A stretch of 64,000 nucleotides of DNA from an uncultured Phaeodactylibacter sp. (lineage in GTDB: Bacteria; Bacteroidota; Bacteroidia; Chitinophagales; Saprospiraceae): assembly GCA_913057245.1 (NCBI GenBank), contig CAJXNH010000015.1, positions 1-64,000 of the forward strand. The letters run 5' to 3'. A program made the translations under genes and the position numbers. Shown piece by piece: positions 50,775 to 55,194 of the stretch (position 1 is its first letter; each line of letters starts with the position of its first letter). Under the pieces are notes generated by a model that was given only the letters and a program-made list of their open reading frames with translations, was not told the origin of the DNA and did not search any database.

Positions 50775-53288
50775 ATGAATGTATTTTTACGAAAGCAAAA
50801 TCTAATCCTGCTCCTCGTTCTGCTGGGGCTCCCTGCGTTGGGGCTTAGTCAGACTACGGTGAGGGACACGATTTACGAGTCCCAGGGGTACCATCAGATC
50901 AGCACCACACTTTCCTTTACCTCTGAGCCAAACGACCCGGCATTGGTTTCTGCACCTGAGTATGGCTCTGTAAGCTGGACGGAAGTTTCTCCTTTCAACT
51001 ACGAGTTGACCTACACGCGTACGGATGGGCAGATGGGGTCAGATAATTTCACGATGCTGGTCTGGACCAATGTCTTTTCTTACGAGCAAGTTAATTTTCA
51101 CATTGTCGTTAAGGCTTCAGCGGTGGAGTGCCTTCACGATCACGCGACCACCAACGTCAACACACCGGTTAGTATCGATGTGCTGCAGAATGATCTGACG
51201 ACCACCGGAATCATTTACATCAAGAATATTCCGCTGGCCAACAACGGCTTCGCCACTTATTCAGCAACGGATGGTACAATTACCTTTACCCCGAGTACAG
51301 ATTTTGAAGGTACAGCCTACCTTAACTATGTCGCCTGCGACAGTACAGGGACCTGTGATAATGGCACCGTAAGCATTAGCGTATTGGGCCAGAATGCAGG
51401 GCAATCAGACACAACAAGACTTTTTACGAAAAAGAATACCACGCTCCCGGTTTTTATTCCTCAGGAGTATACACTGACTCAGTCACCTGCTGAAGGTACT
51501 TTTACGAATGATGGGTTTATCCCATATTATGAGCCAAACACCGACTTTGTCGGTACTGATTACCTCGCCTTTGATTATCAGGGCGCCGATAAGGTTATTG
51601 AAATTGACGTGATGGACCTGGAGGACAATTCCTTCGCGGTTGATGACGAGTTCCACATGACGCCTTTTGAAGGGCAGGTGGAAATTGATGCTTTGGAGAA
51701 TGACTTCTTTGGTTCAGATGCCAGCTGTGTGCAGTTGCAGGCTCAGCCAGAGTATGGGACCGCGTCTTACAATCCCCAGGCTGACGGGCGGGGCGTATTC
51801 CGCTACACACCGCCAGCAGGCTTTACCGGCGTAGATTGGTTTACTTACACTTCCTGTCCTCCGGGCGGTACCGGCAGTCAATCCGAAACAGCAACAGTTT
51901 ACGTCTTTGTAAGCAAATACGAGCCTTCTGCTACCAACTTCCGGATGAGTACGCCCAAGCTGACCCCGCTTGTGGTGGGCTACAGCGTGCCTATTCAGTC
52001 CTATTCCTTTGATATTATTGAGAGCGGTAACCTGGGATCTACTATTTTCCTTGAGGGTGACGTGGATACGACCATATTGGGTCAACCAATTACCGGTCAT
52101 AACCTCATCATCTATACCCCTAATGATGGCATAGACAGCGGACTGGATGAAATTGAACTGGAATACTGCGTTAAGATTAATGGCAGCTGCGCTTACCTAA
52201 AGACAGTAAAAATTGATATCGATATCCTGGATATAGGAGGCGGCTCCGAACCCATGTGCTTTGATGATTGTATCTGGTCTGGTGATGCCAACTTTGATGG
52301 CATTGTAGATATGGAGGACCTGCTGACAATTGGCTGGGCGATCGGTGAGGTAGGTGTCCCACGTGCAGATGCTAACCCCGATCTTTGGTATGGCAAATAT
52401 GGTGATGACTGGAATGATCCATTCCAAAGCCTGCCTATTGACCTGAAACACCTCGATACAGATGGGGATAGCCTGATCACTGCTGCGGATACGACGGCCA
52501 TTAGCAACTTCTATGGTAATGCCCACTCTATGACGGCTTCCGTTATCCCGTTTTATGAAGATGAGATCGTGCTGGAGGGTGACCTTTATGTCAGCCCTGG
52601 CGACCTCGTAGAACTGAAAATGAAAATGGGAACGCCCGATAATCCGGCAGAGAATGTTTATGGGTTCACTTTCCCATTCTCTTATAACCCAGACTTGGTC
52701 GTACCAGGCTCTGTATTTGTTGATTTTGAATCCAATAGCTGGCTGACTTACAACTCGCCCATTTTGTATATGCAGCGGGATGATCAGGAGGGAACGCTTA
52801 ATGCTGGCTTTACACGCACGAATGCCATTGCTGCAAATGGTTATGGGGTGGTAGGATCAGTTAGCTTCGTTATTAATGATGATATAGACGGTTTCCGCGA
52901 CGACGATGGCGCACTAGCCCTGCAGGTTGGCGGCGGGTCCTCTACCGTGATGAATGGCGGTGGCAGTTCTTACGGCATTAATATTGGTGGAGCAACGATC
53001 CACATCCGCTTGGACGAGGAAGCGAAAGACGAGCCGCTTGATGCCAATCAGCTGAAGCTTTATCCTAACCCCACCAACCGGGACTTCATCAATGTCCACC
53101 TGAACGGACAGCAGGACTTCGAACGCATCGTGGTGCATGACCTGACCGGTCGCCCAATGTTCGACTCCGATAATGTGCTGACGAACCGCATGCAGATATC
53201 CGTAGGGGACTTTGCCAATGGTATCTACGTTTTATCTGCCTACACCGAGCGTGGCGTGGTCAACAAGAAATTCCAGGTGATCCGGTAA
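50775..53288 (+). CDS. Large T9SS adhesin-like protein with dockerin-like and cohesin-like domains
   Basis: An 837-residue protein with an N-terminal signal (LLLVLLGLPALGLSQ) and tandem Ig/cadherin-type domains (TNVNTPVSIDVLQND, then FEGQVEIDALENDFFG, VDWFTYTSCPPG). A dockerin-like EF pair follows (DANFDGIVDMEDLLTIGWAI near 502, DTDGDSLITAADT near 561), then a cohesin-like beta domain (residues 597-740, VSPGDLVELKMKMG, VYGFTFPFSYNPDLV). It ends in a T9SS domain (LYPNPTNRDFINVHL, NGIYVLSAY). Secreted and probably calcium-dependent. Having both modules in one chain would allow self-assembly. Confidence 0.8.
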   Translation: MNVFLRKQNLILLLVLLGLPALGLSQTTVRDTIYESQGYHQISTTLSFTSEPNDPALVSAPEYGSVSWTEVSPFNYELTYTRTDGQMGSDNFTMLVWTNVFSYEQVNFHIVVKASAVECLHDHATTNVNTPVSIDVLQNDLTTTGIIYIKNIPLANNGFATYSATDGTITFTPSTDFEGTAYLNYVACDSTGTCDNGTVSISVLGQNAGQSDTTRLFTKKNTTLPVFIPQEYTLTQSPAEGTFTNDGFIPYYEPNTDFVGTDYLAFDYQGADKVIEIDVMDLEDNSFAVDDEFHMTPFEGQVEIDALENDFFGSDASCVQLQAQPEYGTASYNPQADGRGVFRYTPPAGFTGVDWFTYTSCPPGGTGSQSETATVYVFVSKYEPSATNFRMSTPKLTPLVVGYSVPIQSYSFDIIESGNLGSTIFLEGDVDTTILGQPITGHNLIIYTPNDGIDSGLDEIELEYCVKINGSCAYLKTVKIDIDILDIGGGSEPMCFDDCIWSGDANFDGIVDMEDLLTIGWAIGEVGVPRADANPDLWYGKYGDDWNDPFQSLPIDLKHLDTDGDSLITAADTTAISNFYGNAHSMTASVIPFYEDEIVLEGDLYVSPGDLVELKMKMGTPDNPAENVYGFTFPFSYNPDLVVPGSVFVDFESNSWLTYNSPILYMQRDDQEGTLNAGFTRTNAIAANGYGVVGSVSFVINDDIDGFRDDDGALALQVGGGSSTVMNGGGSSYGINIGGATIHIRLDEEAKDEPLDANQLKLYPNPTNRDFINVHLNGQQDFERIVVHDLTGRPMFDSDNVLTNRMQISVGDFANGIYVLSAYTERGVVNKKFQVIR

Positions 53289-53440: not shown

Positions 53441-53501
53441 ATACATTCGTGGAATTATAATCATTGCTATTGAGTCGCACAGAAGTGTGCGACTTTTTTT
53501 T
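53441..53501 (+). ncRNA. Hairpin unit 1 (putative small RNA with terminator)
   Basis: A 20-nt motif (53441-53460, ATACATTCGTGGAATTATAA) is followed after 12 nt by a stem AGTCGCACA/TGTGCGACT (53473-53494) and eight T. A TTG at 53420-53422, 19 nt before TACATTCG, gives a promoter-like pattern. This is one of three similar units in the gene-free stretch 53289-53919, all oriented plus. Confidence 0.5.
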
Positions 53502-53703
53502 GCGCGATCTCAAGTTTTTTTCACAAATACGCTTCTTGTTTCCTGTTTTTTACTGGATTTCTGCTACAGGTGTGTCGTTTTTGTTTTTCACAAACCCTTG
53601 TTTTTGTCTTTGTTCTTCCTTGGATAATGTTGAATATTTGTAGAGTGAGAGGGTAGAAATGTTGTCAACGGGCTGCAAAACACCTTTCACCATTAAGAAT
53701 TGA

Positions 53704-53775
53704 ATATGTTCATGGGATTATAATTTGTTAGTAGTGAGCCGTTCGCTACGACAGCTGAACGGCTTACTATTTTTT
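53704..53775 (+). ncRNA. Hairpin unit 2 (putative small RNA with terminator)
   Basis: The motif ATATGTTCATGGGATTATAA (53704-53723) is followed after 8 nt by a 13-bp stem TAGTGAGCCGTTC/GAACGGCTTACTA (53732-53769, one G-T pair) and T6. Stem sequence differs from units 1 and 3. Confidence 0.55.
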
Positions 53776-53869
53776 ATAATCTCCGATTAAAATACAAGAG
53801 TACGATTCCAACTAGGTTAAACAAAGGTCGTTTACGTTTGGATACGTACTATTCGTGAGATTTTTTTAG

Positions 53870-53921
53870 ATATGTTCATGGGATTATAAGCTAAGGCTGT
53901 GCTTTTCGCACAGCCTTTTTT
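53870..53921 (+). ncRNA. Hairpin unit 3 (putative small RNA with terminator)
   Basis: The identical 20-nt motif (53870-53889) is followed after 3 nt by a perfect 10-bp stem AAGGCTGTGC/GCACAGCCTT (53893-53917) and a T-run. It ends at the stop of the convergent rarA gene, whose stop codon it reaches. On the minus strand no T-run follows, so the terminator is oriented plus. Confidence 0.55.
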
Positions 53922-55194
53922 AATACCCGTACCAGTCGTCCCACCATTCTTTCAGCTGCCGCTTCAACTTCTGCTCTGCGGCATTATCCTGTGGCTCGAA
54001 AAGCTTTTGCCCCTTTAGCTGATCCGGGAGGAAATCCTGCTGCACAAAGTTGCCCGGGAAGTCGTGGCTGTACTTATAGTCTTTGCCATAGTCCAGGTCT
54101 TTCATCAGTTTAGTGGGGGCATTGCGCAGGTGCAGGGGCACTGGTAGACTGCCGGTCTGCCGGACGAGCTGCTGGGCCTGATTGATAGCCATATAGGCCG
54201 AGTTGCTTTTTGGGGAACTGGCCAGGTAGATGGCCGCCTGAGATAAAATAATCCGGCCTTCGGGCAGTCCGACCGCCTGCACCGCCTGGAAAGTGGTGGT
54301 CGCCATCAGTAAGGCATTGGGGTTGGCCAGACCAATATCTTCTGCCGCTGAAATCAGCAGCCGGCGGGCAATAAACTTCACATCTTCCCCTCCTTCGATC
54401 ATGCGGGCAAGCCAATAGACGGCCCCATTCGGATCGCTGCCCCGGATGGATTTGATAAAGGCCGATATGATATCGTAGTGCTGCTCTCCGCCTTTATCGT
54501 ACCGGCTGATATTCTGCTGCAGCTTTTGGGTCACCATTTCGTTGGTCACGGTGATGGGCTCGGACGCCTTGCCGTAATTCGTCACCAATTCCAGGATGTT
54601 GTAAAGCTTCCTGGCATCTCCACCGGAGTGGAGGAGTATGGCATCGTAATCTTTGATGGTTATTTTCTGCCCTTTCAGAAACTCATCTTCTTTGAGGGCC
54701 CGCTCAATAAGCCCGATCAGTTCATCCTTGCTAAGCGATTCCAGCACATACACCTGGCAGCGGGAGAGGAGGGCCGGGATGACCTCAAAGGAAGGGTTTT
54801 CCGTAGTGGCTCCAATAAGCGTGATAACACCTTCCTCCACTGCCCCGAGCAGGGAATCCTGCTGGGATTTGCTAAAGCGGTGGATCTCATCGATGAACAG
54901 GATGGGGTTGGGGCTATCGAAAAAGCGCTGGCTTTTGGCCCGCTGAATGGTTTCCCGCACATCCTTCACGCCGGAGTTGATAGCCGATAAGGTGTGAAAG
55001 GGCCGGTCAAGCTCATTGGCGATGATTTTCGCCAGGGTGGTCTTACCGATGCCCGGCTGCCCCCAAAGAATAAAGGAGGGGATTTGGCCAGACTCAATAG
55101 CCTGCCGCAATACCGCACCCGGTCCTACTAAATGTTGCTGCCCTACGTAATCTGCCAATTGGCGGGGGCGCATCCGTTCTGCCAGTGGTCTCAT
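53920..55194 (-). CDS. rarA: Replication-associated recombination protein A (RarA/MgsA)
   Basis: A 424-residue AAA+ ATPase with Walker [10 protein letters not shown] (residues 45-53), Walker [17 protein letters not shown] near 98, sensor 1 [11 protein letters not shown] and the C-terminal MgsA tetramerisation region ([19 protein letters not shown] near residue 250, [11 protein letters not shown]). It acts at stalled replication forks and interacts with SSB and clamp-related proteins. The length fits the family. It begins 118 bp before the start of the divergent SprB-repeat gene at 55312. Confidence 0.95.

Follow-up and report, generated by a model that had tools for sequence, protein, structure and literature searches.

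A conserved core motif beside hairpins in Saprospiraceae: candidate families of small RNAs and of RNAs complementary to them

Among described systems the FopS/GibS RNAs of Bacteroides thetaiotaomicron, multicopy small RNAs described together with RbpB, are among the closest to the RNAs we discuss here (PMC11697453). In the part of that paper available to us, FopS is ~65-70 nt long, represses susC-type mRNAs through a 5' seed and has canonical sigma-ABfr promoters, and we count these promoters as a likeness to our RNAs. Ours carry a short conserved motif, the core, and we call them core RNAs. As far as that account describes FopS/GibS (PMC11697453), both groups come from the same phylum, both join a shared element to a diverse 3' part, and the FopS/GibS trait of being multicopy paralogous RNAs with a shared conserved element is also found in the core RNAs. 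The core RNAs are unlike FopS, so far as it is described there, in forming tandem arrays, in having dedicated anti-core RNAs and in having a core that hardly occurs outside a different bacterial family.

Bacterial sponge RNAs are also close. The named cases in the available part of a review, chb/ChiX, SroC/GcvB, AgvB and 3'ETS-leuZ, are parts of mRNAs, of a tRNA precursor or of phage RNA (PMC8383071). They have in common with the network we propose that one RNA base-pairs with and titrates another (PMC8383071, same part), and the anti-core RNAs are predicted to be complementary to the conserved element of another RNA, as sponges are. The network would be unlike these named sponges in consisting of two chromosomal multicopy families, with anti-core RNAs that fit two core classes by means of two seeds. 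CsrB and RsmZ are protein sponges in which a short element is repeated between hairpins. The core arrays also repeat a short element between hairpins, but no CsrA (PF02599) was found in the 35 genomes searched. Compared by description, and as far as the accounts at hand go, the core and anti-core RNAs are a variant of sRNA and sponge regulation and a member of neither FopS/GibS nor the named sponges.

To our knowledge the Bacteroidota are without the classical sRNA chaperones best known elsewhere, and little is known about their RNA regulation. A limited literature search found nothing relevant on the core letters or on small or structured RNAs of Saprospira, and found no reciprocal multicopy RNA arrangement. 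We believe the case is of interest because structured RNA families with no Rfam match, conserved in one bacterial family, look as if evolution had fitted them to one another for pairing. If this is true, titration by RNA alone, with many sites and many gene copies, can be put to the test here.

The core cluster in the window

The window is the whole stretch of DNA that was analysed, 64,000 nucleotides of a contig from an uncultured Phaeodactylibacter sp. (CAJXNH010000015.1). The cluster in it (Table 1) lies between a long plus-strand ORF with a secretion-type C-terminus, which ends at 53288, and a minus-strand rarA-like ORF, which ends at 53920; both were typed or named from the sequence, not by a family search. 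The sole ORF of at least 50 aa in the ORF list between these two points is a 59-aa TTG ORF. A preliminary description had reported three plus-strand units here, each a motif followed by a hairpin and a T-run, and all three are present, with the motif exact in units 2 and 3 and diverged in unit 1. It had also described the motif as conserved and the hairpins as variable, which is borne out both in the window and in its relatives. The three hairpins differ in sequence and are followed by T8, T6 and T6, the T-run 3' of hairpin 2 having six T and then an interruption (TTTTTTATAA). Judged from sequence, the appearance of the stretch fits the suggested family of short non-coding transcripts.

Table 1. 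Positions of the core units, the promoter-like stretch and the inferred RNA in the window
Feature	Position	Strand	Basis or remark
Unit 1 diverged core ATACATTCGTGGAATTATAA	53441..53460	+	4/20 mismatches, 80% identical to core
Unit 1 hairpin (53474-53493) and T8, terminator-like, GTCGCACAGAAGTGTGCGACTTTTTTTT	53474..53501	+	
Upstream element TTTTTCACAA of conserved promoter-like stretch	53584..53593	+	alignment
-33-like box GTCTTTGTT	53606..53614	+	conserved across loci, by eye
-7-like box GAATATTTGTA	53632..53642	+	alignment; predicted start ~53645 (inferred)
Inferred non-coding RNA, two core modules	53645..53921	+	promoter-like stretch, terminator, fold
Unit 2 core ATATGTTCATGGGATTATAA, exact	53704..53723	+	
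Unit 2 hairpin AGTAGTGAGCCGTTC / GAACGGCTTACTATT (~53730-53771) and interrupted T-run	53730..53775	+	fold
Cis anti-core TTATAATCTC, pairs with GGGATTATAA (53714-53723)	53774..53783	+	MFE fold
Unit 3 core ATATGTTCATGGGATTATAA, exact	53870..53889	+	
Unit 3 hairpin (53893-53917) and T6, terminator of inferred RNA	53893..53921	+	

With up to 3 mismatches the core has 2 matches in the window and none in 100 dinucleotide shuffles, so two exact 20-nt copies are far beyond chance. The subtype of unit 1 (TTCGTGGAATTATAATCATTGCTA) recurs at the rarA-linked loci L065/L181 and L070/L186, and also at L056, where no rarA was found in the sequence examined. The cultured relative Phaeodactylibacter luteus KCTC 42180 has the rarA-linked cluster as well (locus L109). 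Rfam release 15 gives no match at gathering in the window besides two tRNAs; its five matches in the cluster itself have E-values of 0.21 to 1.6 or above, each below gathering.

We believe the units do not all stand on the same footing. In an alignment of rarA-linked clusters (four distinct loci, since L181 repeats L065 and L186 repeats L070) a conserved stretch with -33-like and -7-like boxes lies ~60 nt upstream of unit 2, and similar promoter-like stretches lie upstream of many other clusters. The -7-like box resembles the TAnnTTTG -7 box of flavobacteria, as given in the part of the source at hand (PMC9723704). A strict promoter pattern is found upstream in 29 of 113 clusters, against control values of 1 (downstream), 0 (opposite strand) and 0.3 (shuffles); the box of the window (AATATTTG) is one letter short of this pattern and rests on the alignment. 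A second pattern (P2) gave nothing above background in the clusters. A looser one, present in 82 of 141 clusters, was run without a control and is left out of the evidence. Because the promoter-like stretch lies upstream of unit 2, units 2 and 3 are probably parts of a single ~275-nt RNA, from ~53645 to 53921, and unit 1, which lies upstream of that stretch, is probably separate. The picture of three like units is therefore better redrawn as two modules of one RNA plus a unit apart. The fold of 53645-53920 has an MFE of -85.8 and a z of -6.25. A second TTTTTCACAA occurs at 53517-53526, directly 3' of unit 1, and resembles the upstream element of the promoter-like stretch. Several array RNAs elsewhere (L061, L071 and L078 among them) have GGAGG-like purine stretches near their 5' end, which could pair with the 16S anti-Shine-Dalgarno.

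The motif had earlier been suggested to be a shared promoter or 5' end. In this explanation the core would act in the DNA, as a promoter or as the site of a regulator, and would drive tiny RNAs starting at each hairpin. The core does contain a -10-box-like TTATAAT, the majority letters at -10 to -6 relative to the 15-nt core are TTTGG, and the hairpin begins, by eye, ~3-14 nt 3' of the core. However, the spacing from core to hairpin is variable, and many clusters have a separate conserved promoter-like stretch upstream of their first full unit. Complementary RNAs with G.U-biased changes in their seeds, presented below, also suggest that the motif acts at the RNA level. We consider it quite unlikely that the core works as such a DNA site, and it is probably not the promoter. 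Attenuators, the other suggestion, are unlikely in the window cluster, since the gene that follows it is convergent.

Recurrence and architecture of core clusters

Recurrence of the motif beside hairpins in related genomes had been proposed as the test of these ideas, and it was found. Of 60 genera in the window's family, each represented by one genome, 48 have the 20-mer at up to 1 mismatch, and none has the reversed-pattern control. In a search of 59 relatives that allowed up to 1 mismatch, 42 have a match: 34 of the 36 family members and 8 of the 23 genomes from other families of the order. In these other families the reversed control matches now and then too. The exact 18-mer occurs in 6 of 296 genomes of a phylum sample, five of them among the six family genomes sampled and one among the 290 outside. 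Eighty records among the at least 117 stretches listed are mostly named Saprospiraceae or Saprospirales, while some of the records listed are named only Chitinophagales, Bacteroidetes, Bacteroidia or bacterium. The window stretch has no match in plasmids. The 18-nt core is found in 7 viral contigs, four of which have a fold of -18.9 to -21.2 kcal/mol after it. At L314, L315, L316 and L320, in contigs filed as viral, the exact 18-nt core is followed by a hairpin-like fold, and phages may carry core RNAs.

The window's own genome has 15 matches to the 15-nt core at up to 2 mismatches. Besides the window trio there is a second trio on contig C5, with a single match on C3, a pair on C4 and six that are chance-like. 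By eye a hairpin lies 3' of all nine plausible copies except the middle C5 copy, and the first C5 copy has no T-run. Two forms of the core can be told apart, a GGG core in tandem arrays and a GAG core in short single-module RNAs. The GAG core (exact, with A or G at the variable letter) occurs in 14 of the 59 relatives, each of them a family member. Eighteen GAG-core copies were read, and 8 of these begin 87-137 nt 3' of an ORF whose end resembles a secreted protein tail. The C4 RNAs, which are short, have the core CATGAGATTATGATTTGTT.

We drew 141 clusters from loci that were fetched for carrying the core; 100 have at least two copies and 41 have one. Conserved positions inside the search pattern are biased by this choice, and counts overstate events because related loci are not independent. 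Copies within a cluster lie on the same strand 92-453 nt apart, with an irregular spacing that may be compared with the regular repeats and spacers of a CRISPR array. None of the 141 clusters has an exact copy on the opposite strand within 1 kb. Folding of the 70 nt 3' of the motif gives a mean of -22.1 kcal/mol (249 units, fetched loci), against -12.5 for the 70 nt upstream and -10.6 for mononucleotide shuffles, which here, as for the cis stem and both family-2 duplex tests, keep single-base composition only. T-runs of 3-6 follow in 104 of 120 non-last units and T-runs of 6-9 in 107 of 129 last units. On the core strand the stems of 101 non-last units hold 129 G.U against 26 A.C, and those of 119 last units 108 against 9, in a count from which four loci, repeats and one L111 row were omitted, as were stems under a score cut-off. 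Since G.U exceeds A.C on this strand, the RNA is probably read from it.

Internal cores can also pair with an AATCCC-like tail 3' of their own hairpin. Across loci the support for this cis anti-core stem is mixed, at 39% vs 15% by duplex energy but 52% vs 47% by fold, and an earlier duplex test gave no difference, 17% vs 17.5% in last units.

The neighbours of the clusters recur as well, with names read from the sequence and not from a family search. Core clusters are found by the same kinds of gene: 18 loci follow a cytochrome-peroxidase-like ORF and 13, partly the same, an MbnP-like ORF. Twelve follow an S8-protease-like ORF, 15 are near an ORF like the one preceding the window cluster, and 8 follow a coiled-coil repeat ORF, 7 of these with an antisense RNA.

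A skeptic could argue that the units are terminators or a mobile repeat of the REP or MITE kind with no regulatory role, being multicopy, intergenic, hairpin-bearing and often 3' of secreted-protein-like ORFs. But a strand bias, a promoter-like stretch, recurring neighbours such as rarA, the G.U asymmetry between strands and complementary partner RNAs all speak against this, and we regard it as very improbable. We give even less credence, close to none, to the idea that the core is a mini-ORF leader, although it reads ATG TTC ATG GGA TTA TAA and all 255 units with up to 1 mismatch to the 15-nt core keep the second ATG. We reject it because the stop is not kept: among 24 stop variants 18 are TAC, TAT, TTA or AAA and only 6 are TGA or TAG. 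Unit 1, too, is without either ATG.

Candidate RNAs complementary to the core

In some clusters a degenerate middle copy is best read as a gene on the opposite strand, in which the core complement comes first and a hairpin with its T-run comes after it. The clusters hold 53 minus-strand terminators, and 35 of these have an anti-core within 70 nt, one being listed twice and about five looking spurious. The strand asymmetry is turned around here, since the antisense hairpins have G.U 17 vs A.C 1 on the other strand (n=29). Twelve antisense RNAs were aligned (A1) and have two seeds, seed A TAACAAATTGTAATCTC and seed B TAATCCCATGAACAT. A model built for the antisense RNA (R1) matches 17 of 60 genera, 14 at E below 1e-5 and 3 weakly (E 0.002 to 0.009), and places one in the window's own genome at C5:67742-67873. 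The window cluster itself has no antisense RNA, and the scan of clusters listed no minus-strand terminator with an anti-core there. Read-through of the rarA-like mRNA beyond its stop would carry a perfect complement of the unit 3 core in its 3' end (53870-53923, minus strand). Between the first unit and the antisense RNA on C5 lies a long hairpin (L016 5621-5679, C5:67620-67678); it is a match to Rfam MIR7696 below gathering, probably by chance through an inverted repeat. At E up to 0.5 Rfam gives one match below gathering for L016 and none for L286.

The changes in the seeds have a direction. Compared with the core complement, seed B has 25 G.U-compatible transitions and 4 incompatible ones in all 35 rows, spurious ones included (15 vs 4 in unique sequences), and also 18 transversions that would break pairs. 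Seed A has 31 against 5 in the 12 rows within 4 mismatches (21 vs 3 in unique sequences), an excess that comes mostly from two columns differing in 11 of the 12 rows. The non-seed columns of the antisense alignment have 74 G.U-compatible against 65 incompatible transitions, and this lack of direction argues against a plain mutation bias of the strand. Within the window's own genome, seed B is predicted to pair with window units 2 and 3 at -26.2 and -26.3 kcal/mol (18 contiguous bp, at least 22 in all) and seed A with the two C4 RNAs at -23.1 and -22.1 kcal/mol (17 contiguous bp), against a predicted -9.4 to -16.6 kcal/mol for the crossed pairs of seed and core. The complement of seed A matches 22 places in 15 of 35 genomes; some are antisense RNAs, some are other short core RNAs, and the rest lie in coding or unexplained DNA. 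We considered whether seed A and the C4 RNAs show a clean compensatory change and reject this, because the C4-type G also occurs in genomes with T in seed A, where the pair would be G.U.

A second kind of putative anti-core RNA is encoded in trans. Searched with the anti-core letters, 59 genomes give 9 matches (reversed pattern: 3), of which 3 are RNAs of what we call family 2; three copies of it were found by such a search in genome G025. By eye a member carries a promoter-like box of its own together with two anti-core sites, a hairpin, a domain and a strong terminator. The 28-nt domain GGTATGTAGATAGCCTCTCAAAGCTCTT is identical in the 21 members aligned (A2), though members were picked out for resembling one copy and were positioned on the domain, which favours its identity. 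These are 21 of the 24 members listed; L298, L301 and L308 were left out, and L297 (truncated), L306 and L310 (both repeats) had been dropped from the list earlier. Among 25 predicted pairs, 15 are maintained through changes on both sides.

Family 2 is found by blastn in 14 of 60 genera. A model of it (R2) gives 2-3 matches at E up to 0.01 in each of five genomes of the window's genus, 11 of the 12 at E below 1e-24. The window's own assembly, which is 62% complete, has no clear member and one model R2 match at E 0.0077. Weak matches (E 8e-4 to 0.01) also occur in other families, and both these and the one in the own genome are probably due to chance. No copy of the domain was found in the 296 phylum genomes, six of which belong to the family, or in viral contigs or plasmids.

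The 5' part of family 2 is predicted to pair with the core at a mean of -28.2, vs -17.3 for shuffled regions, and 17 of 24 members beat all 50 shuffles while seven did not. Their sites have 46 vs 15 transitions relative to the core complement, and also 40 transversions, in windows that overlap; measured against the sites' own consensus the transitions are only 45 vs 32. Among six same-genus copies, 4 beat all 40 shuffles with window unit 2 and 4 with unit 3. Five of the six have one CCC site and one CTC site, the same dual fit as in the antisense RNA, and the sixth (L327) has TTC and CTC.

Across the 60 genera the core is present in 17 of 17 with the antisense RNA and in 14 of 14 with family 2, and both partners occur together in 12 (counts uncorrected for relatedness). 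Model R1 finds no antisense RNA in 31 of the 48 core-bearing genera, and blastn no family 2 in 34. With partners missing in so many core-bearing genera, either something besides them keeps the core conserved or the searches missed diverged ones.

How the core and anti-core RNAs may act

On balance we favour the view that the window RNA is a member of the core family, and that core and anti-core RNAs form a titration network of sRNAs and anti-sRNAs that works by base pairing, and we hold this with moderate confidence. Comparison supports its conservation, strand, stems and complementary seeds, and we infer transcription, the direction of control and mRNA targets. The window would encode, at 53645-53921 on the plus strand, an RNA of two modules, each the core AUAUGUUCAUGGGAUUAUAA and then a hairpin, the second hairpin acting as terminator. 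This RNA would belong to a multicopy family that includes both the GGG-core tandem arrays and the short single-module RNAs with a GAG core. Many of the same genomes would also make anti-core RNAs, namely the array-encoded antisense RNA and the trans-encoded multicopy family 2, and the better preserved of these would have two seeds, one for each core class. The core RNAs may be small regulatory RNAs or decoys, and the anti-core RNAs may bind the cores and so remove them from use, or the reverse may be true.

Genera that gave no partner keep the core too, so it may have other partners, mRNA or protein. Anti-core stretches of at least 9 nt at 657 ORF starts, searched for as mRNA targets, number 12, no clear excess over shuffles (mean 8.05, maximum 24), in a test biased by some loci having been fetched for matching the motif. 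Another explanation is that the core is a site for an RNA-binding protein, as in CsrB, with the anti-core RNAs merely tuning such a protein sponge. GGGA-bearing elements repeated between hairpins in a multicopy RNA are what one would look for, and the core is also conserved in genera where no anti-core RNA was found. But the matching of seeds to two classes is not predicted by a protein site. A sponge for CsrA in particular is rejected on the search mentioned at the outset, 0 of 35 genomes having PF02599 and 3 of 14 control genomes being positive. We think a protein site is unlikely, although it seems to us the least unlikely of the alternatives discussed here.

The titration network can be taken one step further, and here we are only tentative. 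It is possible, but short of probable, that two unrelated structured multicopy families with mutually complementary cores, together with an antisense RNA of dual specificity, make up a multivalent switch of RNA-RNA titration whose output runs through the 28-nt domain of family 2 (GGUAUGUAGAUAGCCUCUCAAAGCUCUU). If this is true, it also offers an invariant domain. The domain, in the members L287-L313, contains AUG UAG, a start codon adjoining a stop codon.
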